From assembly GCF_004022215.1 (NCBI RefSeq), contig NZ_SAUZ01000027.1, positions 1 through 56,126 of the forward strand: DNA of 56,126 bases, in the 5' to 3' direction. The DNA is from Paenirhodobacter populi (GTDB lineage: Bacteria; Pseudomonadota; Alphaproteobacteria; Rhodobacterales; Rhodobacteraceae). How positions within the stretch are numbered: position 1 is the stretch's first letter; each line of letters begins with the position of its first letter. The translations under genes were made by a program, and so were the position numbers. Below are positions 6,535-56,027 of this stretch, piece after piece. A model generated the notes under the pieces. It was not told the origin of the DNA. It searched no databases and was given only the letters and a program-made list of their open reading frames with translations.

Positions 6535-6714
6535 TCTGCGAAGCAAACGTGATCGAACACAGGCTGGCCAGACCCAGCCACCCGTGGATGACCGATGTGA
6601 TCGACAAGAGCTTTTTGAGCGGATTCGCGCTATTCTCATATTGCGCGCGGAAGACCGCGGGCGAAGGGCAGGGTCCGAGGTGAGAGCCCTGCCGCGCAGC
6701 CTCTATCGTGGCGC

Positions 6715-34032: not shown

Positions 34033-34701
34033 ATGCGTCGCATCCGGGTACTTTCCGTTTCTTTCGCTTGTCTGGGCTTTGGCCTGTCGCCCGGACATGC
34101 CCATCCGCATGAGTTCATCGACACTGGCATAACCTTTCGGTTCGACGACAGGGGTCAGCTCGGGGCGATCGGCGTCGTCTGGGCTTGGGACGAACTGACC
34201 TCAATGCTGATCGTCGAGGACATGGAAATGGATACGGATGGCGATGGGGAGCTGAACGGCGATGAGTTGCAACGACTGCGCGATCACTTCGGCCGCTGGC
34301 CTGACGATTTTGGCGGGGATCTCTATGTGAAACAGGGCGGAAAGGCCGTGACGCTCAGCGGTCCCCTGGATGTGCAGGCGGAATACCGAGGAAATCGGGT
34401 GATCATCAGCCATTTGCGGGCCTTGCCGCTGCGCCTAAATCCCGAGACAGCCCCCGTCATCGTGCAGGCGTATGATCCGGCCTATTATGCCTTCTACGAT
34501 CTGGTGGAAACGCCCGGAATTCGGGGGCGCGAAGGCTGCAGCGTTACGATCCGCGAGGCCGACATCGCTGCCGCCCAGAAGCGTTACGATCAGTTGTTGG
34601 GGCAATTGACCGAACAGGAGATAATGGAAGAAGGAAAATATCCGGAGGTCGGCGGTGCCTTCGCGGATGAGGTCAGGATCGAATGCGACAAGCGGGAGTG
34701 A
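34033..34701 (+). CDS. DUF1007 periplasmic protein of a metal exporter
   Basis: A 222-residue exported protein (signal about 1-24) beginning HAHPHEFIDTGITFRFDD after cleavage, the hallmark of DUF1007. An EF-hand-like MDTDGDGELNGDEL (about 66-80) suggests calcium or metal binding. Two cysteines remain near the end (GCSVT, IECDK). The family is regularly found directly upstream of NicO/RcnA-type nickel or cobalt permeases, as here (19 bp overlap), and is thought to assist metal export in the periplasm. Confidence 0.85.
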   Translation: MRRIRVLSVSFACLGFGLSPGHAHPHEFIDTGITFRFDDRGQLGAIGVVWAWDELTSMLIVEDMEMDTDGDGELNGDELQRLRDHFGRWPDDFGGDLYVKQGGKAVTLSGPLDVQAEYRGNRVIISHLRALPLRLNPETAPVIVQAYDPAYYAFYDLVETPGIRGREGCSVTIREADIAAAQKRYDQLLGQLTEQEIMEEGKYPEVGGAFADEVRIECDKRE

Positions 34702-35585
34702 TCGCAGTTCTCCTCGTGGTGCTGGTCTCGGGGCTGTTCTTTGTCCACGGCATACAGGATTGGTTCGTCCATCATGCCATTCCGTTGCAGCGCGAAGCGC
34801 AGAATGCGCTTGCCGGTGCGCTGCGGTCACTGCGGGCAGCGCAGCCGGGGGCGGTTACCGGCTTTCTTTTGCTGTGCTTTTCGCATGGTTTTCTGCATGC
34901 TCTCGGCCCCGGACATGGCAAGGCGGTCATCGCGGCCTATGGCGCCGCCGCGCCATCGTCATTGCGTTGGCTTATGGCTCTGGCCGCGTTGTCCAGCCTC
35001 GCGCAGGCGACGGTAGCGGTTGCGCTGGTCTATGCGGCGGTCTGGCTGCTTGACGGCGCGCGCGATCGCGTCGAGGGGCTGGCCACGATGATCGAGCCAT
35101 TCTCCTTCGCGATCATCGCCCTTCTCGGTCTGATGCTGGTTCGCCGCGGGGCGGGGCGCTTGATAGGGATATTCGCGCGGAAGCGCCCGACGGGTCATCA
35201 CCACCATGTCCATGGGCCGGATTGTGGCTGCGGCCATAGCCATGCGCCAGATCCGGCCGCGCTTGCCGCCGCCCGTGACAGGCGGGAAGCCGTGGCCCTG
35301 ATCCTTGGCGTCGCCCTGCGTCCATGCACCAGCGCGTTGTTCCTGCTGATCCTGACATGGCGGCTGGATCTGGAACTTCTGGGAATTCTTGGCGCCTTCG
35401 TCATGGGGCTGGGGACGATGACGGTCACCGTTTCGGCCGGGCTGGCTGCCGCCCTGCTGCGCCGGGGTATGTTCCTTGCGCTGCCTGAGGGAAGGTCTCT
35501 GGCCCCGGCGGTCGCCCTGTCCGAACTGCTGCTCGGGGCGTTGATCGCGGTGCTGGCGGGCGGCATGGTCCTTCGCCTGATCTGA
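34683..35585 (+). CDS. NicO/RcnA-family nickel-cobalt exporter
   Basis: A 300-residue membrane protein with about six helices. The NicO metal motif is HGFLHALGPGHGKAVI (about 76-91). A cytoplasmic His/Cys-rich loop reads HHHHVHGPDCGCGHSH, and LGVALRPCTSALFLL forms the second conserved motif. It should export nickel or cobalt, possibly iron, from the cytoplasm. Overlap with the DUF1007 gene indicates one operon. It converges with the phosphoglycerate mutase gene. Confidence 0.88.
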   Translation: MRQAGVIAVLLVVLVSGLFFVHGIQDWFVHHAIPLQREAQNALAGALRSLRAAQPGAVTGFLLLCFSHGFLHALGPGHGKAVIAAYGAAAPSSLRWLMALAALSSLAQATVAVALVYAAVWLLDGARDRVEGLATMIEPFSFAIIALLGLMLVRRGAGRLIGIFARKRPTGHHHHVHGPDCGCGHSHAPDPAALAAARDRREAVALILGVALRPCTSALFLLILTWRLDLELLGILGAFVMGLGTMTVTVSAGLAAALLRRGMFLALPEGRSLAPAVALSELLLGALIAVLAGGMVLRLI

Positions 35586-35644: not shown

Positions 35645-36267
35645 TTATGCCGGGCGAAGCTCTTCCACCGACAGCGTGGTTCCATCAGGGGCGATCTTGT
35701 AAACGATCGGAACGCCCGTCGGGATCTCGCGGTTGGTGATGGCTTCCCCGTCCAATTCTTCAAGCTTCATGATCAGGGCCCGAAGCGAATTGCCATGCGC
35801 AGCGATCAGCACGGTCTGTCCGGTGAGCAAAAGCGGGGCGACATTGCGCTCATACCACGGCAGGACGCGGTTGGCCGTATCTTTCAAACTCTCCCCGCCC
35901 GGTGGCGCGATGTCAAAGGAACGGCGCCAGATATGCACCTGATCATCGCCCCAGCGTTGCCGGGCGTCATCCTTGTTCAGGCCCGAGAGGTCGCCGTAAT
36001 CGCGTTCGTTGAGCTTTGATGAACGGGTAATCACCAGATCGGTAATGCCCATTTCCTGAAGTGCGAAATCCAGCGTGTGATAGGCGCGCTGGAGGGCCGA
36101 GGTGAACCACGCATCCGGGATTATGCCGTGTTCCCGCAGGGCCTTTCCGGCGCGACGCGCCTCTTCGATGCCCCGTTCGGTCAGGTCGGGGTTGGGATGT
36201 CGGTAAAGAGGTTCCGTGCGTTCCAGGCGCTCTGGCCATGTCGCAGCAGGATAAGGGCGCGGCTCAT
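35645..36267 (-). pseudogene. gpmA: 2,3-bisphosphoglycerate-dependent phosphoglycerate mutase, frameshifted
   Basis: The gene starts at ATG 36267 (AGAAGGA upstream) with MSRALILLRHGQSAWNARNL, the phospho-histidine RHG motif. After NLFT the frame ends in a stop within ten residues. One base over, the family sequence continues as NPDLTERGIEEARRAGKALR, through ERDYGDLSGLNKDDAR and LIAAHGNSLRALIMKLEEL, to a stop at 35645. A single base is missing near 36200. Otherwise full length and conserved, so the lesion is recent or a sequencing error. An accessory copy in this region would make its loss tolerable. Confidence 0.85.
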
Positions 36268-36318
36268 CGGAGGTTCCTTCTGTATCGCGGTGGCTATTCT
36301 GAAATTCATTAATGCAAC

Positions 36319-36359
36319 TGCAACGCAGTCGCAATAGATATGGGTGCAACGGGGTTGCA
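36319..36359. promoter_or_regulatory. Tandem TGCRA-N5-TYGCA operators ahead of the Fez-like operon
   Basis: Two sites: TGCAA-CGCAG-TCGCA at 36319-36333 and TGCAA-CGGGG-TTGCA at 36345-36359, between the divergent gpmA and HMA-protein genes. The same 5-5-5 architecture occurs before the Irr-like gene (42998) and between mur and sitA (49955, 49985). It resembles Fur/Mur-type boxes of alphaproteobacteria. Confidence 0.6.
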
Positions 36360-36434
36360 ACGTTCCCGGGGCGACCTGTATCAGTGCAGGATTCTGACTG
36401 TGACGGTAAACATGCTGATGGGAGGCGGGTTCGC

Positions 36435-36746
36435 ATGACGGATGAGGAATTGCTGGCGGGGTTGGCGGCATGCCGGATCGCGCATCACATTCCGGGACGG
36501 CTGCGGGTGAAACTGGGCGCAACGTCTTCGCAGGCCATGCCCGGGCTTGCCGAGGCGGCGGCGCTTCTGGATCGCCTGCGCGCCATTCAAGGTGTGAAGG
36601 CGGTAACGGTCAACAAGCTCGCCCGGTCATCGACGGTGGAATACGATCCCGCCATTCTTGCGCCCGAAGGTTGGGAAGATGTCATGCAGGGTAGGCAAAC
36701 CGGGGCGGCTGAAGAACTTCTGGCACGGTTTGGCAAGACCAGATAA
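36435..36746 (+). CDS. Small HMA-like domain protein of the Fez-like cluster
   Basis: A 103-residue soluble protein with a heavy-metal-associated (ferredoxin-like) fold of the HMA_2 type. AHHIPGRLRVKLG is followed by LLDRLRAIQGVKAVTVNKLA and TVEYDPAIL. The CxxC of classical HMA domains is absent; instead it has HxxPGRLR. The ATPase four genes downstream carries the same HxxPxRxR signature at its own N-terminus. It may deliver or sense the transported metal. It heads an operon of five genes with gaps or overlaps under 40 bp. Start ATG 36435; the frame opens at 36312. Confidence 0.7.
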   Translation: MTDEELLAGLAACRIAHHIPGRLRVKLGATSSQAMPGLAEAAALLDRLRAIQGVKAVTVNKLARSSTVEYDPAILAPEGWEDVMQGRQTGAAEELLARFGKTR

Positions 36747-36780
36747 GCATGATGGCAAAACTGGAAAGGACCAAGGGATC

Positions 36781-37116
36781 ATGAATCCGATCGTGACACT
36801 TGCGGCAGGCATCGTTCTTGGCGCGCTTGGAATCCGTTATGGACAGAAGCGTGGATCGCTCCGCGCGATCCGCCAGAGCGGAGAAACCGGAACGGCGCTG
36901 ATCCGGGGTGGACTGGACCGTGCTGGCGACCAGTTGCGTGGCGCGGCTGTTTCGGGCCTCGCCGTGGTCGAGAAGCAATCGGGTCAACTGCGGCAGCGAC
37001 TGGAGGGCGGCCCGGCAGAGCCTGTCCCGGAGCCGCCGAAAAAGGTGAGCCGCGCAAAGCGCAGCCCCCGCAAGACGCCCGCCGCGACCGCGGCGAAAGG
37101 GAAGGCCGATTCGTGA
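36781..37116 (+). CDS. Small membrane protein with basic C-terminal tail (Fez-like cluster)
   Basis: A 111-residue protein that I do not recognise by family. It has one glycine-rich hydrophobic helix at the N-terminus (VTLAAGIVLGALGIRYG), then an amphipathic section (GTALIRGGLDRAGDQLRGAA). The tail is rich in Pro, Lys, Arg and Ala. GXXXG-like spacing in the helix could promote packing in a crowded membrane, as in proteins of bacterial organelles. The tail is overlapped by the next gene (4 bp). Function inferred only from neighbours. Confidence 0.65.
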   Translation: MNPIVTLAAGIVLGALGIRYGQKRGSLRAIRQSGETGTALIRGGLDRAGDQLRGAAVSGLAVVEKQSGQLRQRLEGGPAEPVPEPPKKVSRAKRSPRKTPAATAAKGKADS

Positions 37117-37439
37117 AGCAGAAGCAGCGCAAGCGGGTCACGCAGGCGCAGGTCGCGCGGATGGCGTTCACGCGGGGGCTGGTCGCCACGGGTGTGCTGG
37201 CCTTTGCCGAAAGCGGTGGTGGGGCGCTGTCGCGGAGCGCTTTGCGCCGCGCGCTCAAGTCCGGCATCGCGGTCGCCAGCGGTACACTGGTGGCCGATTC
37301 CCTTGAGCGGGACGAACCCTTGAAAGCGGTGCTGGCGATCGCGGGCGGGATCGTTGGCGCTGCGGCAACCGACCGATTGCTGGCGGTGGCGGATCAGGAA
37401 CAGGAGCGAGTGAGAGATGGCAAAGAAGAAATCGGCTAA
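37113..37439 (+). CDS. Small glycine/alanine-rich membrane protein (Fez-like cluster)
   Basis: A 108-residue protein starting at GTG 37113, inside the previous stop codon. A basic N-terminus (MKQKQRKRVTQAQVARM) is followed by hydrophobic segments rich in Gly and Ala (GLVATGVLAFAESGGG; SGIAVASGTLVADSL; VLAIAGGIVGAAATDRLL). It ends in an acidic tail. No known family recognised. Size, composition and tight coupling suggest a structural membrane protein for the compartment associated with the ATPase. Confidence 0.65.
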   Translation: MKQKQRKRVTQAQVARMAFTRGLVATGVLAFAESGGGALSRSALRRALKSGIAVASGTLVADSLERDEPLKAVLAIAGGIVGAAATDRLLAVADQEQERVRDGKEEIG

Positions 37440-37728
37440 GAAGAAAAAGAACAACAAGATCCGTTACGTGGAAGCCGCCCCCCGGAAGGCGACGGTGCTG
37501 GATGGGCTCAAATCCGTTCTGCCGGAAACCGCGTCCGGGCAGCTCCTGCTGGGGGTGCTGATCGGAGGTGCGGTCACCTATGTGATGAGCGACGAAAAAC
37601 TGCGTGAGAAGATCATCCGTCAGGGTGTGCAGGCGTTCGGCAACGCAGCGGGCGCGCTGGCCGAGTTGAAGGAACAGATCGCCGACATCCAGGCGGAAGT
37701 CATGGCGGAGCAATCCGAAGAGGCATGA
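37417..37728 (+). CDS. Small single-pass protein with lysine-rich N-terminus and coiled coil (Fez-like cluster)
   Basis: A 103-residue protein with MAKKKSAKKKKNNKIRY at the N-terminus and one membrane helix (GQLLLGVLIGGAVTYVMS, about 41-58). A C-terminal helical, coiled-coil-like part follows (ALAELKEQIADIQAEVMAEQ). It resembles the YtxH/DUF5132 style of small proteins found beside unusual P1B-ATPases. It overlaps both neighbours (23 bp and 4 bp). Exact role unknown; the basic tail could bind nucleic acid, phosphate or polyphosphate (inference). Confidence 0.65.
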   Translation: MAKKKSAKKKKNNKIRYVEAAPRKATVLDGLKSVLPETASGQLLLGVLIGGAVTYVMSDEKLREKIIRQGVQAFGNAAGALAELKEQIADIQAEVMAEQSEEA

Positions 37729-39848
37729 CGCAGGATTTCTTGCTGTCGCGGGCGGAGGCGGTGCATTGCCTGCCCGCCCGCGTGCGGTTTCGGTGTGCCT
37801 TCCGCGATGCGGGGCAGGCGGATTGGTCGATGCTGACCGCGCTCGCCCTGGGGATCGACGGGGTCGAAAATGCGCGGGCCAGTGCGCATGCGCGCTCGCT
37901 CGTGCTCGGCTTCGATCCTGCCGTGACCGATCCCGCGCGGATTCGTGCGGAGCTGCTCTCCCTCGGGGCGCAGGCCGCGGCGGCGCGGGGGGATTCAGCG
38001 CCGGCCCATGCCGCCCGCAATGCGCTGCTCACCAGTGCGGTGGTCCTGTTCGGGATCGGCTGGTTGCCGAGGGCCTTGCAGTTCGGGATTTCAGCGGTCG
38101 CCGCCTCTTCGCTGTTTCGCGAGGCGGGCGAGGATCTGGCGCACGAAGGGATCACCTCGCGGGTGCTTGAGGGGCTTGCGGTGGCGATCTCGCTGACGCG
38201 GGGGGATTACGCCGTGGCGAATACCACGGGGTTCCTGCTGTCTCTTGGGGAATATCTGAGCGAAACGACGGCAAGACGTTCCGACATGCTGCTGCGCGAA
38301 TTGCTGCGCCCGGCCCATCCTTCGGTCTGGGTGATGCAGGACGGGCAGGAGGTCGAGATCCCCGCCGACGAGGTGGTCATCGGCGATACGGTGATCGTGG
38401 CCGCGGGGTCGGTTCTGCCGGTCGACGGGCGCGTGCTGTCCGGTCTGGCCAGTGTCAACGAGGCGGCCCTGACCGGTGAAGCCACTCTGGTCGAAAAGAA
38501 GCGCGGGGCCAAGGTGCTTTCCGGCGCTCTGGTTCAGGAAGGCCGGATCGCGGTCTATGCCGAAAGTGTCGGCGCCGGCACGGTGGCGGCGCGGATCGCG
38601 GAATATGTCGAGCGGTCGTTGGCCGCGAAGGGGCGGATGCAGCTGGATTCGGCGCAGCTTGCCGATCAGCTGGTGCCGACGATCCTGCGGGTGGCGACGG
38701 CCTCTTTCCTGATCTCGGGCGACTGGCGGCGCCCGGCCTCGGTCCTGCAGGCAGATTATTCCTGCGCGCTGAAACTTGCGACACCGATCGCCTTCCGGTC
38801 TGCGATGTACGGGGCCGGGCAATCGGGCATCCTCATCAAAGGCGCGGACGCGCTGGAGCGTCTTGCGGAAGCGGATACCTACGTCTTTGACAAGACCGGA
38901 ACCCTGACCACCGGTGTTCTTGAGGTCACCGACGCGATTGCCTTCGACGCCGATTTCAGTCCTGAGGATCTGATCTGCCTCGCCGCATCGGTCGAGGAAC
39001 ATTACGCCTTCCACCCGCTGGCGATGGCCGTGGTGGAGGCCGCCCGCGCCACCGGGCACAACAAGCATTTCGACCATCAGGAAGTCGAGTTCATCGTGGC
39101 GCATGGCGTTGCGAGCAGCATTGACGGAAAGCGGATCGTCGTCGGTTCCCGGCATTTCGTCGAGGACGATGAGGGGATTGATTGCAGCGCCCATCGGGGC
39201 ATGATCGATCACCTGTTCGATGAAGGGAAAACCGTACTTTTCGTGGGATTCGGTGGCCGCCTTCTGGGGATCATCGGGCTGGAGGATACGCTGCGCCCCT
39301 CGGCTGCGGCAAGCATCGCGCGGCTTCGGGAACTGGGCGGCAAGCGGATTCTGATGCTGACCGGGGACCGTGAGGATCGCGCGCAGGAAATCGCCGCTGA
39401 GCTCGGGTTGGACGGCTACCATGCCGATCTGCTGCCCGAGGACAAGGCGCGCATCATCGAGGAGCTTGGCAGGTCCGGCGCGCGCATCGCCTTTGTCGGC
39501 GACGGGATCAACGATGCGCCGGCGCTGGCGCGGGCCTATGTCGGGATCGCGATGAACCGCGGCGCCGATATCGCCCGGCTGACAGCAGATATCGTGCTTC
39601 TGGAAGATGACATCGCAGGGATCACCGATGCGGTCGAGATCGCCCGCGAGGTGATGGATGTCATTCGTGTCAGCTTCCGCCTGACCATCGGGTTGAACAC
39701 CACCATTCTTGCCGGTGCCGCACTGGGTCTGCTGTCGCCGCTGGCGACCTCGGTCCTGCACAACGGCAGCACCATCGCCATTCTGCTCAATGTCCTGCGC
39801 CGGCATATCGGTCCGGCGCAAAGGCCCGTATTGGCCCCTGTGGGCTGA
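37725..39848 (+). CDS. P1B-type metal ATPase without CPC motif (FezB-like, probable iron)
   Basis: A 707-residue P-type ATPase. Order: degenerate HMA-like domain (about 8-85, HCLPARVRFR, no CxxC), membrane helices, actuator TGEA (about 250), transport helix with SCALKLATP (C347) in place of CPC, phosphorylation site DKTGT (D389), LTGDRED, and GDGINDAPAL (near 590). The last helix pair has HNGSTIAILLN. The lack of CPC and the HNxST pattern separate it from Cu, Zn and Cd pumps. It fits the P1B-6-like group that loads iron into ferrosomes. The ion is inferred, not shown. It is the last gene of the five-gene operon. Confidence 0.8.
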   Translation: MTQDFLLSRAEAVHCLPARVRFRCAFRDAGQADWSMLTALALGIDGVENARASAHARSLVLGFDPAVTDPARIRAELLSLGAQAAAARGDSAPAHAARNALLTSAVVLFGIGWLPRALQFGISAVAASSLFREAGEDLAHEGITSRVLEGLAVAISLTRGDYAVANTTGFLLSLGEYLSETTARRSDMLLRELLRPAHPSVWVMQDGQEVEIPADEVVIGDTVIVAAGSVLPVDGRVLSGLASVNEAALTGEATLVEKKRGAKVLSGALVQEGRIAVYAESVGAGTVAARIAEYVERSLAAKGRMQLDSAQLADQLVPTILRVATASFLISGDWRRPASVLQADYSCALKLATPIAFRSAMYGAGQSGILIKGADALERLAEADTYVFDKTGTLTTGVLEVTDAIAFDADFSPEDLICLAASVEEHYAFHPLAMAVVEAARATGHNKHFDHQEVEFIVAHGVASSIDGKRIVVGSRHFVEDDEGIDCSAHRGMIDHLFDEGKTVLFVGFGGRLLGIIGLEDTLRPSAAASIARLRELGGKRILMLTGDREDRAQEIAAELGLDGYHADLLPEDKARIIEELGRSGARIAFVGDGINDAPALARAYVGIAMNRGADIARLTADIVLLEDDIAGITDAVEIAREVMDVIRVSFRLTIGLNTTILAGAALGLLSPLATSVLHNGSTIAILLNVLRRHIGPAQRPVLAPVG

Positions 39849-39902: not shown

Positions 39903-40466
39903 TCAGATCTTGCCGACCAGATCGAACGAAGGTGCTAGGGTCTTTTCCCCTTCCCGCCATTTGGCCGGGCATACCTCGCCGGGGTGATTGCGAACATATT
40001 GCGCGGCCTTGATCTTGCGCAGAAGATCGGCGGCATCGCGGCCGACGCCCTCTGCCGTGATCTCCAGCGCCTGGATCACGCCATCGGGATCGACGATGAA
40101 AGTGGCGCGATCCGCGAGGCCCTGCTCTTCGCGCATGGCGTCGAAGTTGCGGGTGACGGTCCCCACCGGATCGCCAATCATCGTATATCTGATCTTGCCG
40201 ATCGTATCGGAGCTGTCATGCCATGCCTTGTGGGTGAAATGCGTGTCGGTCGAGACCGAGAACACCTCGACGCCAAGGCTCTGAAGTTCCGCATAATTGT
40301 CGGTGATATCGCCAAGCTCGGTCGGACAGACGAAGGTGAAGTCCGCCGGATAGAAGAAGAACACCCCCCATTTCCCCAGGACATCGGCCTCGGTCACGGT
40401 TATGAATTTGCCGTCCTTGTAGGCCTGGGATTTGAAGGGGCGGATTTTCGTATTGATCAATGCCAT
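39903..40466 (-). CDS. ahpC: Alkyl hydroperoxide reductase subunit C (2-Cys peroxiredoxin)
   Basis: A 187-residue typical 2-Cys peroxiredoxin. The peroxidatic Cys is C47 (FTFVCPTEL) and the resolving Cys is C166 (GEVCPAKW), both conserved, with the C-terminal extension of AhpC-type enzymes. It reduces H2O2 and organic peroxides, normally using AhpF, which is absent here. Start ATG 40466; the open frame further upstream is not coding-like. It lies last in a minus-strand group of redox and iron-regulator genes, next to a probable iron store, where peroxide control would limit Fenton chemistry. Confidence 0.92.
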
Positions 40467-40561
40467 ATCGACTCTCTGGTTCTGGTGAAGATCGGCGGGC
40501 CGGAGCTTTCGGAGAAGAAGGCACCGGCCCGGTGGAGGTATGGGCGTGGATGCGCCCCGCC

Positions 40562-42042: not shown

Positions 42043-42504
42043 TCATCCGGTCTCTCCTTGGTGTTGCGGGGGAGCTGGCTCAAGACGGATCACGACGTCG
42101 ATATTGGCGATCCGGTAGCCTTGCGGTGGAACCGGCAGGCGTGCGAAGCCGATTTCATCGGGCGGGATGTCGATCATCCGATTGTCTGCCTCGATATGGA
42201 AATGGTGGTGATCCCCGGTGCCGATGTCGAACTGCGCCGCGCCGCCTACGGTGGCGAGCCGCCGGATAAGGCCATGCGCCGCGAAGTCGCTGAGCGTATT
42301 GTAGACGGTCGCAAGCGACAGACGTTGCCCGGTCTCCATCGCGGCGGCGAAAATCTCGTCAGCGGTGAAGTGATGATAGCTCTTGCCGAACAGGATATCG
42401 GCGATGGCCTTGCGCGAGCGGGTGACGCGCAGTCCCGCGGCCTCCAGCAGGTGAACGCCCTTTGTCTTGGGGGCGTTGCGCTCGATCGTGGCTTCCTGAA
42501 ACAT
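42043..42504 (-). CDS. irr: Irr-like Fur-family regulator
   Basis: About 154 residues from ATG 42504 (an earlier ATG at 42582 is possible). Fur fold: LLEAAGLRVTRSRKAIADIL, recognition helix LSLATVYNTLSDFAAHGLI, then FDIGTGDHHHFHIEADNRMI with the HHH motif that binds haem in Irr, and IANIDVVIRLE at the end. Irr controls haem and iron genes of alphaproteobacteria according to haem status. The cysteine pairs of Zn-type Fur are missing. It lies directly downstream of a second Irr-like gene; the order and lack of spacing indicate one transcript. Confidence 0.82.
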   Translation of the reverse strand: MFQEATIERNAPKTKGVHLLEAAGLRVTRSRKAIADILFGKSYHHFTADEIFAAAMETGQRLSLATVYNTLSDFAAHGLIRRLATVGGAAQFDIGTGDHHHFHIEADNRMIDIPPDEIGFARLPVPPQGYRIANIDVVIRLEPAPPQHQGETG

Positions 42505-42532
42505 GGGGGTTGGCTTGTCGCTGGGGGTGTCG

Positions 42533-42982
42533 TCATGAGGAATGGAAGGGCGTGTCTTCACGCCGGATGCGGCACAGGACATCGACGCTGGAAAGCCTGT
42601 AACCCTCGGGCGGCGTCGGGAGCGCGGGGAGTCTGCTCATGTCCGGCGGAATATCAAGCAGGCGGTCTTCTTTCTCCACGTAGAAGTGGTGATGATCCCC
42701 GCCCAGCAACTCGTAACAGGAGGTATTGCCGTAAACCGGTACCCGACGCAGGAGCCGGCTTGCGCGAAAGTTTTTGAGGCTGCCGCGGATGCAGCTCAGC
42801 GGTCCCGGCGCGCCGCGCCTGCGCATCTCGTCATAAAGGCCCCCGGCTGATACATGACGAGGCGGTTGGCCATACAGGATGTCGATGATCGCCAGACGAT
42901 GCCGGGTGACGCGCATTCTGGCTGTGGCCAGAATGCGACGGGCTTCTTCCGCGGGGATTCGGCCGTTTGGATTCAGCGTCAT
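42533..42982 (-). CDS. Second Irr-like regulator with altered recognition helix
   Basis: A 149-residue paralogue of the neighbour, with ATARMRVTRHRLAIIDILYG, GDHHHFYVEKEDRLLDIPPD and LSSVDVLCRIRRE, including the HHH haem motif. The usual recognition helix SLATVYNTL is replaced by GPLSCIRGSLKNFRAS, so DNA specificity may differ or be weakened. Start ATG 42982 behind a strong AGGAGG. A TTGCGA-N5-TCGCAA operator lies 16 bp upstream (42998-43014). Probably autoregulated or under another Fur-family protein. Confidence 0.78.
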   Translation of the reverse strand: MTLNPNGRIPAEEARRILATARMRVTRHRLAIIDILYGQPPRHVSAGGLYDEMRRRGAPGPLSCIRGSLKNFRASRLLRRVPVYGNTSCYELLGGDHHHFYVEKEDRLLDIPPDMSRLPALPTPPEGYRLSSVDVLCRIRREDTPFHSS

Positions 42983-42997: not shown

Positions 42998-43014
42998 TTG
43001 CGATCTACTCGCAA
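42998..43014. promoter_or_regulatory. TTGCGA-N5-TCGCAA operator before the second Irr-like gene
   Basis: Perfect 6 bp inverted repeat with a 5 bp spacer, 16 bp upstream of the start codon. It matches the operator core found in the Fez-like and mur/sit promoters. A further AT-rich stretch with ATTATCGCGAATGATAAT lies just upstream (about 43052-43069) and could be the promoter or a Fur-type box. Confidence 0.65.
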
Positions 43015-49463: not shown

Positions 49464-49889
49464 TCAGTTCGCGGCGGGTTTCTTCCTTGCGCGGATGAAG
49501 GAATGCAGGCTGACGATTTCATATCCCAGCCGATCTGCCAGATCCTGCCGTATCCGGTTCAGCTCTTCGCTTGGCAGTTCGATCACCTCGCCGCTGTCGA
49601 CATCGACAAGGTGGTCATGCTGCGAGGCGGGGGTGATTTCAAAGCGCGCGGGTTCGTTCTCGAAGGTCAGCCGCTGCACGAGGCCCGCCTCCTCCAGCGT
49701 CGAAAGCGTGCGGTAGACCGTGGCGAGCGAGACGGAATCGTCGAGCGCCCGCACCCGCACGAAGATTTCCTCGGCATTCGGATGGTCGGTCGATTCCATC
49801 AGGATCGCCAGCAACGCGACGCGCTGCTGCGTGACTTTCAGTCCCGCTTCCCGCAGGGCCTGGGCGAATTCGTTGCTGCCATTCGACAT
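49464..49889 (-). CDS. mur: Fur-family regulator, probable Mur (manganese uptake regulator)
   Basis: A 141-residue Fur protein: LREAGLKVTQQRVALLAILM, recognition helix VSLATVYRTLSTLEEAGLVQ, and HDHLVDVDSGEVIEL with the HxHxxD metal site. It has no cysteines, so it lacks the structural zinc CxxC sites. In Rhizobiales and Rhodobacterales this form, divergent from sitABCD, is Mur, a Mn-responsive repressor. Two TGCRA-N5-TYGCA operators lie in the shared promoter. Confidence 0.85.
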   Translation of the reverse strand: MSNGSNEFAQALREAGLKVTQQRVALLAILMESTDHPNAEEIFVRVRALDDSVSLATVYRTLSTLEEAGLVQRLTFENEPARFEITPASQHDHLVDVDSGEVIELPSEELNRIRQDLADRLGYEIVSLHSFIRARKKPAAN

Positions 49890-50041: not shown

Positions 50042-50944
50042 ATGACACCGACACTGACACGGCTGCTGGGCGCAACGGCGATCATGGCGCTGTGCTCGAC
50101 GGGTGCGTTTGCGGCCGACAAACTGAAGGTCGTGACGACCTTCACGGTGATCGCGGACATGGCGCAGAATGTGGCGGGTGACGCGGCCGAGGTGGTTTCG
50201 ATCACCAAGCCGGGGGCCGAGATCCATGGCTACGAACCGACGCCGCAGGACATCGTGCGGGCGCAGGATGCCGATCTGATCCTGTGGAACGGCCTGAACC
50301 TCGAACTGTGGTTCAAGCAGTTCCTGTCGAACCTGAAGGACGTGCCCGCCGTGACCGTGACCGACGGGATCGAACCCATCGCCATCAACGGCGGCGAATA
50401 CAACGGCAAACCGAACCCGCATGCATGGATGGGGCTGTCGAGCGCCGAAATCTACGTCGACAACATCGAAAAGGCGCTTGCCGAACATGATCCGGCGAAT
50501 GCCGAGATCTACAAAAAGAACGCCGAAGCCTACAAGGTCAAGCTGGCTGAAACGCTCACGCCCCTGAAGGCCGAGATCGCGGAGATCCCCGAGGATCGTC
50601 GCTGGCTGGTAAGCTGCGAAGGCGCGTTCAGCTATCTTGCCCGCGACTTCGGCATGCATGAACTTTACCTCTGGCCGATCAACGCCGACCAGATGGGCAC
50701 GCCGCAACAGGTGCGTCACGTCATCGACGGGGTGCGGAAGAACCATATCCCCGCCGTCTTCTGCGAAAGCACGGTGAATACCGCGCCGGCCCAACAGGTG
50801 GCGCGGGAAACCGGGGCGCATTACGGCGGCGTCCTCTATGTGGACAGCCTTTCGGAACCCGATGGTCCGGTGCCGACCTATCTCGACCTGTTGCGGGTCA
50901 CTTCGGAAACCCTTGCCAAGGGTCTGACCGACGGGGCGAAGTAA
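50042..50944 (+). CDS. sitA: Mn/Fe ABC transporter substrate-binding protein
   Basis: A 300-residue cluster A-I (cluster 9) metal-binding protein with a signal peptide (about 1-25). Predicted metal ligands are H62 ([10 protein letters not shown]), H127 (NPHAWM), E193 (SCEGAFSY) and D268 (YVDSLS), the His-His-Glu-Asp set of Mn or Fe(II) proteins such as SitA and MntC. AAGAGGATATGG precedes the start. First gene of sitABCD. Confidence 0.9.
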
Positions 50945-53904: not shown

Positions 53905-54724
53905 GGGCGTGTTAACGCCACCTGACCTACGGCATCCATGCTATCCCTTTGGAATGAATGAGATAAGCGAAGCGCAATACGAGTTGATCCGCCTCTATCT
54001 GCCGGTGCAGCGGGGCAATGTGCGGATCTCCAATCTGACGATGATCAACGCGGTGCTCCATATCGCCGAAAACGACTGCAAGTGGCGAGCCTTGCCTCCC
54101 CGGTTTGGGAATTGGCGCACGATCTACACCCGCCTGCGTCGTTGGGCCGAGGCCGGCGTGCTTGACCGGCTGTTCGCGGCCCTGCAGGAGCATCGGCTGA
54201 TCCGGATCCGGGTCGAATGCCTCGGCCTCGACAGCACCTCGGTCAAGGTTCACCCGGATGGCACGGGGGGCGCCGAAAAAAGAGGCTACAAGCCATCGGA
54301 AAATCTCGCGGAGGATGGAGCGCCAAGGTTCACCTGGTTGCTGCGGATACTCGAACGGCCCTGACATTCAGCCTTTCCGGCGGGCAGGCCCATGATGCAC
54401 CGGAAGGGCGGGCCTTGCTTCGGGGCTGGAAAAGGCCGCTGTCCGGCGTGCCCATGCTGATGGATCGCGCCTATGAAGGCGAAGAAACCCGACAGCTTGT
54501 TCTCGACCTCGGGTTTGAACCGGTCGCTCCACCCAAAATGAACCGCAAGGAACTCCGGGAATACGACCGCGACCTCTACAAGCGCCGCAACGAGGTCGAA
54601 AAGCTGTTCCGCAGACTGAAAGGCTACCGCCGCATCTTTTCACGTTTCGAAAAGCTCGATCTCATGTTCCGGGCCTTCCTGAACTTCGTTCTCATCGCTG
54701 ACATGCTCAAGCGTTAACACGCCC
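53905..54724 (+). mobile_element. IS5-family (IS427 group) insertion sequence, apparently complete
   Basis: An 820 bp element bounded by the inverted repeat GGGCGTGTTAACG and flanked by a TA duplication (53903-53904 and 54725-54726), the target preference of the IS427 group. It contains two overlapping transposase frames. The left flank is the truncated gene; the right flank is the stop codon of an IS481 transposase. Confidence 0.9.
53954..54717 (+). CDS. IS427-group transposase, made by -1 frameshifting
   Basis: OrfA (53954-54364) starts MNEISEAQYELIRLYLPVQR and contains CKWRALPPRFGNWRTIYTRL and LDSTSVKVHPDGTG with the first Asp. OrfB (frame -1, to 54717) gives SRGGWSAKVHLVAADTRTAL, MLMDRAYEGEETRQ (second Asp) and YKRRNEVEKLFRRLKGYRRI (third acidic residue). 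The frames meet at a GCCGAAAAAAGAG slippery site (about 54278-54284), the usual programmed frameshift of this group. The catalytic DDE set is intact after the shift, so the element may be active. Confidence 0.88.
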
Positions 54725-55510
54725 TAGCTGTTCAGTCCCGGCATCTGGTGGATCGGGTTTGGGATGAATCTGTCTGGCTCTGATGTCCAGATCTTGCAGA
54801 TGTATTCGTATGGCGTGAGACCGCCGAGGGTCTTGAGCCTTCGAGCGAAGTTGTAGGCCGCCATGAAGTCTGCGAGGTGCGTTTGAAGCTGGGCATGGCT
54901 GTCGTAATGGAAGCGCTTGACGGTCGCGTCCTTGATCGTGCGGTTCATCCGTTCGACCTGGCCGTTGGTCCAGGGAAGGTTGGGCCTGGTCAGCCTGTGC
55001 TCGATCCCGTTTGCCTCGCAGAGTTGAAGGGGACCGTGGCCCCGGTGGGGCCGCGTAAGCCCCGGAAACGGCGAAGCGCATCGGCCGGGAGTAGATGGTG
55101 TTCCGGTGCCGGGGCTGCTCTGCGAACTGGATCCCGTTGTCGGTGAGAATGGTGTGGACCTGGCAAGGCACAGCTTCGAGCATGTATTGCAGGAATTCCC
55201 AGGCTGTCTTCCTGTCAGCCTTGTCGGCCAGTTGGGTCACGGCGCACTTGCTCGTCCGGTCAATGCCGGCGAACAAATATAGCTTTCCTTCAGCGGTCTG
55301 TACCTTGGCGATGTCGATGTGGAAGAAGCCGATCGGGTAGCGTTTGAACCTCGACCGCTTCGGCTTGTCGCCCTCCACATCAGGCAGGCGCGAGATGCCA
55401 TGCCGTTGCAGGCACCGGTGCAGTGCGGATCTGGTCAGGTGGGGGATAGACGGTTGCAGTGCGTAAAGGCAGTCTATAGCGCGACGATCAGGGTGAGACG
55501 TGCGCGTCAA
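54724..55510 (-). pseudogene. IS481-family transposase, truncated and split by a hairpin insertion
   Basis: On the minus strand the catalytic core reads DCLYALQPSIPHLTRSALHR, IGFFHIDIAKVQTAEGKLYL and HTILTDNGIQFAEQPRHRNT up to PMRF. There the hairpin element (55030-55063) breaks the frame. The rest, CEANGIEHRL-like through MNRTIKDATVKRFHYDSHAQ and AYNFARRLKTLGGLTPYEYI, continues in another frame to TAG at 54724. The N-terminal HTH part is absent (junction near 55490). A fragment holding just that N-terminus lies at 14529. Confidence 0.85.
55030..55063. repeat. Short hairpin element, copy 2
   Basis: GGGACCGT, stem arm GGCCCC, loop GGT, arm GGGGCC, then GCGTAAGCCC, identical to copy 1 outside the stem. 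The inner stem bases differ but still pair (TGC/GCA in copy 1, CCC/GGG here), and the same T-G wobble is kept. The copy may extend to 55072 with GAAG on both sides (55026-55029, 55073-55076). Removing it does not exactly restore the transposase frame. Confidence 0.6.
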
Positions 55511-55523
55511 TCAAGATGAGATT

Positions 55524-56027
55524 CTACGTCGCAGTGAGACCGAGGTTACCATTTTGATTGTCTCTTGCAACCTCGTCGTCGCCTTCTGATTGTCGCGGCG
55601 CGTCAATCCCTGGCGTGTTCTTGATTGTCGCGAATGCCGCGGGCCTTCCTCTCTGCCGCTTTGCCTCGATGGCCGATCGCCGCCTGTAGCTTTCAACGTT
55701 CATCTCGAAGATGGTGGCATGATGAACCAGCCGGTCAACGGCTGCGAGCGTCATGGCCGGGTCAGGGAAGACCCTGTTCCATTCGCCGAAGGGCTGGTTG
55801 GCGGTGATCATAATGGAGCGCCGCTCGTATCGGGCCGAGATGAGCTCGAAGAGAACGCTGGTTTCGGCCTGATCCTTGGTGACATAGGCCAGGTCATCGA
55901 GGATCAGCAGGTCGAACTTGTCGAGCTTCGCGATGGCGGCCTCGAGCAGCAGGTCACGCCACTGCTTGATCTGGTTCGGATGCACGTCGAACTCTTGCGT
56001 GAGAACGGCGGTGCGAAATTGGTCCAC
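55524..56027 (-). pseudogene. Chimeric frame: IS3 OrfA piece fused to IS21 IstB fragment
   Basis: The first about 32 residues (FRTAVLTQEFDVHPNQIKQW, RDLLLEA) match the HTH of an IS3-family OrfA. From AIAKLDKFDLLILDDLAYVT on, it is IstB, the IS21 helper ATPase: Walker B LILDDL, then RYERRSIMITANQPFGEWNR and HHATIFEMNVESYRRR. The P-loop half of IstB is missing. The fusion is in frame, made by an IS-IS junction near 55930, and cannot be a working helper. A downstream tail (to 55524) has no similarity. Confidence 0.7.

Follow-up and report, generated by a model that had tools for sequence, protein, structure and literature searches.

A probable five-gene, FezC-less fez-type operon in Paenirhodobacter populi

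Introduction

What do five tightly spaced genes on the plus strand of Paenirhodobacter populi contig NZ_SAUZ01000027.1 (36435-39848) encode: a system that loads iron into a membrane compartment, or a metal pump of another kind with small accessory proteins? The stretch analysed, 56,126 nucleotides (nt) from position 1 of the contig, is referred to below as the window, and its host is placed in the genus of Rhodobacter capsulatus in the grouping of the genome set used. An initial annotation, made from the window alone, proposed a ferrosome-like operon.

Ferrosomes have been shown in few bacteria, and a five-gene set that lacks FezC would tell which parts are needed. Shewanella putrefaciens has a six-gene fez operon. 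In Rhodopseudomonas palustris CGA009, six fez genes give rise to ferrosomes (PMC12016538, excerpt); Clostridioides difficile ferrosomes require FezA and FezB, both repressed by Fur (PMC12574912, excerpt). The source excerpts describe C. difficile with FezA and FezB only, and ferrosomes for anaerobes or anaerobic life.

Results

Five genes in a recurrent order

The cluster encodes an HMA_2-like protein (P0001), three small membrane-type proteins (P0002-P0004) and a P1B ATPase (P0005), with a 34-nt gap after the P0001 gene followed by overlaps of 4, 23 and 4 nt.

36435..36746, + strand: HMA_2-like protein P0001; HHIPGRLR, no CxxC; resembles the N-terminal half of FezC
36781..37116, + strand: small protein P0002 (K family position), 111 residues; N-terminal membrane stretch and Lys/Ala/Pro-rich tail
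37113..37439, + strand: small protein P0003 (C family), 108 residues, GTG start; two hydrophobic stretches
37417..37728, + strand: small protein P0004 (D family), 103 residues, YtxH/FezA-like; one membrane stretch and a charged C-terminal helix
37725..39848, + strand: P1B-6 (FezB-type) ATPase P0005, 707 residues; N-terminal HMA-like domain, SCALKLATP, HNGST and DKTGT

The five-gene layout and the motifs of P0001 and the ATPase given in the initial annotation are all borne out. The cluster start that it gives, 36319, is where a palindrome-like site begins and not a gene start, the first gene beginning at 36435; the three small proteins are indeed membrane-type and 103-111 residues long, but the description glycine-rich fits them loosely (Gly 14.4, 11.1 and 7.8%, with Ala at 14.4, 18.5 and 15.5%, for P0002, P0003 and P0004). 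That the cluster is no chance assembly follows from the recurrence of the five-gene order elsewhere in the same genome and in Azospirillum brasilense, and in part in other Proteobacteria and in Campylobacterota.

Class and phylogeny of the ATPase

P0005 matches NCBIfam TIGR01525 (E 4.9e-143), and its predicted model (predicted local distance difference test, pLDDT, 79) resembles solved P1B ATPases. The protein carries a P1B-6 signature in which HNGST is present and SCALKLATP replaces CPC, SCA being a sign of P1B-6 ATPases. In the excerpt of PMC9374683, HN in transmembrane helix 6 is a named feature of P1B6 ATPases and CtpC has HN yet retains CPC; the table of PMC7558416, likewise seen as an excerpt, gives Fe(II) as the P1B-6 metal.

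ATPase relatives were drawn from the host genome and its relatives, plasmids, a species genome set and whole-genome samples. A first scan of genome contigs found no relative, and the scan of the species set retained 80 loci, many of them unrelated ATPases because two generic P-type motifs had been used. From an 86-row set, 17 long-branch or near-duplicate rows were removed and four Desulfovibrionaceae rows added to give a 73-row tree (quick method, Shimodaira-Hasegawa-like approximate likelihood ratio support, midpoint root). In this tree P0005 falls in a 42-row clade (support 97) of 39 SCA-type rows and three near variants (SCAVKF), including the ATPase of genome G1303, presumably Desulfovibrio magneticus RS-1, while Escherichia coli CopA and ZntA fall among 26 CPC-type rows (support 99) apart from it. 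The earlier 86-row tree, built without the G1303 row, shows the identical split (P0005 in a 45-row clade, support 98). Where the initial annotation had set grouping with CtpC-type or Zn/Cd exporters against its proposal, the clade of P0005 includes the D. magneticus FezB row and neither ZntA nor CopA, in a tree that contains no named CtpC. In G1303 a small gene lies upstream of the ATPase and an HMA-plus-membrane gene downstream, an arrangement that fits fezABC.

Within the clade, the window ATPase, its second copy and the ATPases of Azospirillum and genome G989 form a sub-clade (support 100), which joins Arcobacter, Sulfurospirillum and a gammaproteobacterium (support 99). P0005 is 39% identical to the D. 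magneticus FezB row over 555 residues, against 34% to ZntA over 535 and 32% to CopA over 524. HN near the C-terminus is found in 39/39 SCA-type, 3/26 CPC-type and 5/8 other rows.

The small membrane proteins

Hydropathy gives one membrane-like stretch in P0002, two in P0003 and one in P0004; the predicted model of P0003 is of low confidence (pLDDT 66). Pfam matches are weak (best DUF5132, E 0.023, and LrgB, E 0.03; none for P0002), and neither Pfam nor NCBIfam provided a convincing family name for the window's C and D members. Profiles of the D (13 sequences), C (11) and K (5) families, built from other clusters outside the window sub-clade, were run on 750 open reading frames (ORFs), drawn from the window and the second copy as well as from Azospirillum and G989. 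Here the D profile finds P0004 (E 1.9e-14) and the C profile P0003 (E 2e-4); the K profile does not find P0002. Profile-profile comparison with hhalign agrees, aligning P0004 to D at 98.8%, P0003 to C at 93.1% and P0002 to proteins at the K position elsewhere at 71%.

With wider profiles, C and D are both found within 5 kb of the ATPase for 16 of the 34 SCALKL rows, 8 of the 23 in the 'other' group and the single ACPVKL row, and beside none of 73 ATPases with CPC, CPG, CPH, SPC or TPC. In the 86-row tree the positives account for all but one (L146, with neither family) of the 26 rows in the proteobacterial and campylobacterial clade; of these 25 rows, the profile training sets included 15 in the case of D and 13 in that of C, and L024 and L044 are one place in R. 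capsulatus. Hence the statement in the initial annotation that the small proteins match no family fails for P0003 and P0004 and stands for P0002.

The 18 SCALKL rows without C and D are all from Firmicutes or archaea, three archaeal contigs having less than 1 kb upstream. Thirteen of them instead have a small protein matched by a Desulfovibrionaceae FezA profile, as does Mailhella, and Pfam DUF6110 was detected in all four of these proteins tested (three Firmicutes, E 9.3e-39, 7.5e-39 and 2.8e-23; Mailhella, E 4e-7). DUF1490 and DUF6110 have no Pfam match in P0001-P0004 at E up to 1.

In hhalign comparison with a FezA profile built from 30 sequences, the group of P0004 reaches 90.4% (E 1.4e-6, 56 columns) and that of P0002 66-80% over about 34 columns. 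As controls, the group of P0003 scores 3.7% with FezA and that of P0004 0.2% with FezC; unlike pairs sharing a membrane stretch reach 53% (P0002's group with D from other clusters) and 67% (P0004's group with K from other clusters). Weighed against these controls, P0004 is the likelier FezA counterpart by profile similarity. For P0002, of uncertain kin, no link to the FezA, DUF6110 or K family is shown, since its matches (21-80%, the lowest being the 21% of its group with DUF6110) are not above the scores of unlike families. Of the profile comparisons suggested by the initial annotation, the one with FezA points to a probable relation for P0004, and the one with DUF6110 to none (6-21%).

The HMA protein and FezC

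P0001 matches Pfam HMA_2 with E 6.5e-6 and 26.6 bits, under the family cut-off of 30. FezC is reported to be a haem-binding, DUF4405-like cytochrome (PMC10979944, excerpt). Aligned by hhalign to the FezC family, P0001 reaches 96.7% (E 3.2e-10, 60 columns) over the HMA half only. A FezC profile of 26 sequences, the D. magneticus row and relatives, picks out the leading gene in the Azospirillum cluster (E 2.4e-26); in the window it matches HMA parts alone (P0001, E 1.5e-6; ATPase, E 5.8e-5), and among 671 ORFs of 12 loci of the host genome it matches only the two HMA proteins and no haem part. The rest of the genome was searched with one query sequence, the Azospirillum FezC, which found nothing better than E 0.011, and with the DUF4405 model, whose four matches all score below its cut-off. 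The two best of these lie in Rieske/cytochrome b-like and formate dehydrogenase-like regions (by reading). The DUF4405 test is a weak one, because FezC-like proteins likewise fall below the cut-off of this model, which also matches in 11 of 14 control genomes.

A second copy, a shared palindrome and the surrounding genes

A second cluster, with identical gene order and an ATPase 83% identical to P0005, is present in the host assembly on contig C6 (loci L021 and L162). The likeness extends over a collinear island: the phosphoglycerate mutase-like proteins are 76% identical, the HMA proteins 58%, the small proteins 62, 63 and 81%, AhpC 88%, two Irr-like regulators 78 and 67% and the SitA-like proteins 75%, with further subunits of the ATP-binding cassette (ABC) transporter common to both. 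On C6, ahpF-like, peptide deformylase-like and methionine aminopeptidase-like genes (by reading) precede the fez-type genes, and the run from the ahpF-like gene into them is closely packed, with short gaps or 4-nt overlaps. Contamination was considered as a source of the second copy: its estimate for the assembly is 2.12%, and the two islands are collinear and carry different gene additions. The elements that surround the window cluster are:

35645..36267, - strand: phosphoglycerate mutase-like gene (by reading), divergent neighbour of the cluster in both islands
36319..36334, + strand: operator-like site TGCAACGCAGTCGCAA, within the promoter region from which the fez-type operon and the phosphoglycerate mutase-like gene diverge
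39906..40475, - strand: AhpC peroxiredoxin (TIGR03137, 335.6 bits, cut-off 272)
42046..42510, - strand: Irr-like Fur-family regulator (IrrA 146 bits, cut-off 150; Irr 134 bits, cut-off 170)
42536..42982, - strand: second, more divergent Irr-like regulator (IrrA 99 bits, cut-off 150; Irr 98 bits, cut-off 170)
42998..43014, no strand assigned: palindrome TTGCGATCTACTCGCAA, directly before the Irr-like gene pair
49467..49889, - strand: Fur-family regulator, divergent from the SitA-like gene
50042..50941, + strand: SitA/MntC-like metal-binding protein, first gene of a Mn/Fe-type (SitABCD-type) ABC transporter; all matches below the models' cut-offs

Of the neighbours named in the initial annotation AhpC is thus present, while the two regulators fall below the cut-offs of the Irr models and can be called Irr-like only.

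The site TGCAACGCAGTCGCAA resembles an alphaproteobacterial Fur/Mur box. A 22-mer at 36313, derived from the window alone, has one other match with up to three mismatches in the 4.78-Mb genome (0.02 expected in random sequence), at C6:55468, in the stretch from which the Irr-like pair and the SitA-like gene diverge on that contig. A shorter pattern occurs at four places in the genome, all in the two islands (backward control, one), and a palindromic pattern at five, four of them in the islands (backward control, none; about 0.8 expected). Within the islands, the promoters concerned are those of phosphoglycerate mutase/fez and ahpF, and further sites precede the Irr-like genes. These two patterns were composed after the sites had been seen, so that their independent evidence lies in their near-absence elsewhere. 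Weaker boxes with three mismatches precede the SitA-like gene in the window (49954 and 49985), and further such matches at 6709 and 43548 have no evident role.

What reads as a nickel/cobalt exporter pair, composed of a DUF1007-like protein together with a His-rich membrane protein, lies upstream (34033-35585); NCBIfam gave no match to the latter. Near the window end (53909-56027) are sequences reading as an insertion-element transposase with an IstB-like helper, a possible clue to the way in which the island was duplicated.

Distribution and neighbourhoods of relatives

The ATPase and cluster type is scattered among the sampled genomes. At E up to 1e-110 the ATPase type was found in one of 295 sampled genomes of the family, the host itself, and in three of 385 of the class, host included, and a more distant member of the clade is present in 2 of 17 genomes of the same genus. 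At E up to 1e-100 it occurs in 14 of 347 genomes in the order of Rhodomicrobium; the tree puts one of these, G779, outside the clade. A same-genus genome (L023) and R. capsulatus (L044) have a different ATPase of the clade, 38-40% identical to that of the window, with ACP for SCA and with C and D genes of its own, which suggests separate acquisition of ATPase clusters within the genus.

Neighbours of the relatives include an annotated FeoA, FeoA/FeoB-like genes (by reading), siderophore genes, an iron ABC transporter and a protein with DUF2202, a ferritin-like domain. DUF2202 is found within the clusters of a gammaproteobacterium (L034:5886-6632, E 1.1e-6, over the cut-off) and of Arcobacter (L027:4339-5022, E 0.0024, under it), and the protein is possibly an iron-handling part of such clusters. 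A Pro/Gly-rich protein whose 'FWKGA' membrane stretch comes late in the sequence is encoded in other clusters (L138:4481-5095, L028:4658-5383, L029:4263-4817 and L044:6795-7310); no counterpart was seen among the genes of the window cluster.

Discussion

The window cluster is probably a five-gene, FezC-less fez-type (ferrosome) operon that would serve iron loading. The fez-type assignment follows from the placement of P0005 with the D. magneticus FezB row, the linkage to the C and D families and the profile relations of P0004 to FezA (90.4%) and of P0001 to the HMA half of FezC (96.7%); we call the operon FezC-less because P0001 matches that half only and the haem part is missing from the cluster. 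Iron is favoured by the ATPase clade, the Feo-like, siderophore, iron ABC and DUF2202 neighbours of relatives, the Irr-like regulators and the P1B-6 Fe(II) entry (PMC7558416, excerpt). The ferrosome-like proposal of the initial annotation accordingly gains support from its FezB-clade ATPase, FezA-related P0004 and conserved C and D families, while ferrosome formation itself we infer by analogy, from likeness to D. magneticus, R. palustris and C. difficile.

Several observations weigh against this assignment. The identity of G1303 as D. magneticus RS-1, and of its ATPase as FezB, is presumptive. The haem-binding, DUF4405-like part of FezC was not found in the cluster with the FezC profile. Run on the 750 ORFs, the FezA profile places the sister of P0004 in L136 first (E 0.0017), P0004 is not among the eight rows listed, and a chance ORF of the window (E 0.32) outranks the P0004 counterpart of the second copy (E 0.46). 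With hhalign the group of P0004 shows no link to the DUF6110 proteins of Firmicutes (6%), and profile comparisons gave P0002 no sure relative outside its own sub-clade. Finally, on C6 the palindromes occupy the stretch that separates the Irr-like pair from the SitA-like gene, leaving room for a manganese role.

The main rivals are an export platform of the PacL kind and, less so, a manganese pump. The first, unlikely though it appears, is a plasma-membrane assembly without an organelle, in which the small proteins would act as PacL-like scaffolds that cluster and stabilise a P1B-6 pump exporting excess Fe(II) to the periplasm. A scaffold role suits one-span proteins with charged tails, and DUF6110 accompanies all four relatives tested for it, but neither DUF6110 nor DUF1490 was detected by Pfam in the window proteins, and the ATPases reported in ferrosomes, as far as the source excerpts go, are FezB-type.

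A manganese or mixed Mn/Fe ATPase, which would export Mn(II) or load exported proteins and share a Mur/Fur-type regulator with a SitABCD-type importer, is less probable again. The placing of the C6 palindromes slightly raises this alternative, and both islands hold the SitA-like transporter, preceded in the window by the weaker boxes; against it stand the FezB-like clade of P0005, the Fe(II) listing for P1B-6 in the same PMC7558416 table and the Feo-like, siderophore or iron ABC genes that adjoin relatives. An ordinary exporter of Zn/Cd (P1B-2) or Cu (P1B-1) with unrelated small neighbours is scarcely credible, for although the best NCBIfam subfamilies are heavy-metal and cadmium ATPases, P0005 lacks CPC, is placed apart from ZntA and CopA and belongs to a type linked to C and D families that adjoin none of the 73 ATPases with a CPC-like motif.

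If the operon is of the fez type, its small proteins may gather in a patch of the inner membrane and help to shape vesicles, while the free HMA domain of P0001 and the ATPase's own HMA domain could hand over or gate ferrous iron. The ATPase would pump Fe(II) from the cytoplasm into the vesicle lumen for storage, with expression coupled to iron by Fur/Irr-type regulators and peroxide damage during the handling of free iron limited by AhpC, joined by AhpF in the second copy. More tentatively, and with the balance tilting against it, the two clusters might represent a cytochrome-free, two-copy, oxygen-tolerant variety of ferrosome, in which Irr-like/Fur-type sensing, peroxide defence and Mn/Fe uptake are joined through one operator class and the HMA half of FezC has split off as a free metal-handling protein.

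In the literature searched by title and opening of the abstract, which left most subscription journals outside, no report was found of a FezC-less five-gene version or of a linkage to Irr, AhpC and Sit genes. New here are the near-private class of palindrome and the second copy, whose collinear island also contains AhpC, two Irr-like regulators and a SitABCD-type transporter. This two-copy linkage, with its palindromes, makes the regulation of putative ferrosomes directly testable in an alphaproteobacterium of the R. capsulatus genus, and the C and D families provide markers for proteobacterial fez-type clusters.

Among known systems, mycobacterial PacL/CtpC platforms resemble the window cluster in that small one-span proteins are encoded with an HN-motif P1B ATPase, and differ in that CtpC retains CPC (PMC9374683, excerpt) and that DUF1490 was not found in the window proteins. 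FezB-clade loci of Firmicutes (for example L038, with a Fur-family gene, a DUF6110 protein and the ATPase) have in common with the window a nearby Fur-family regulator, a one-span protein and a SCALKL ATPase; unlike the window, the C and D families are absent from all 18 of the Firmicutes and archaeal SCALKL rows. The operons of R. palustris CGA009 (RPA2333-2338) and S. putrefaciens, compared by description and not by sequence, are likewise multi-gene fez sets of Proteobacteria, but these six-gene operons differ from the window, which is without a FezC-like gene. With fezABC of D. magneticus RS-1 (L202; presumed identity) the window shares the ATPase clade, P0004 being profile-related to FezA and P0001 to the HMA half of FezC, whereas the haem part of FezC is absent from the window and two more small proteins, of the K and C families, are added. 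Plasmid p3 of A. brasilense, which is not a tested ferrosome maker, carries a FezC-like gene followed by the same five genes as in the window cluster.

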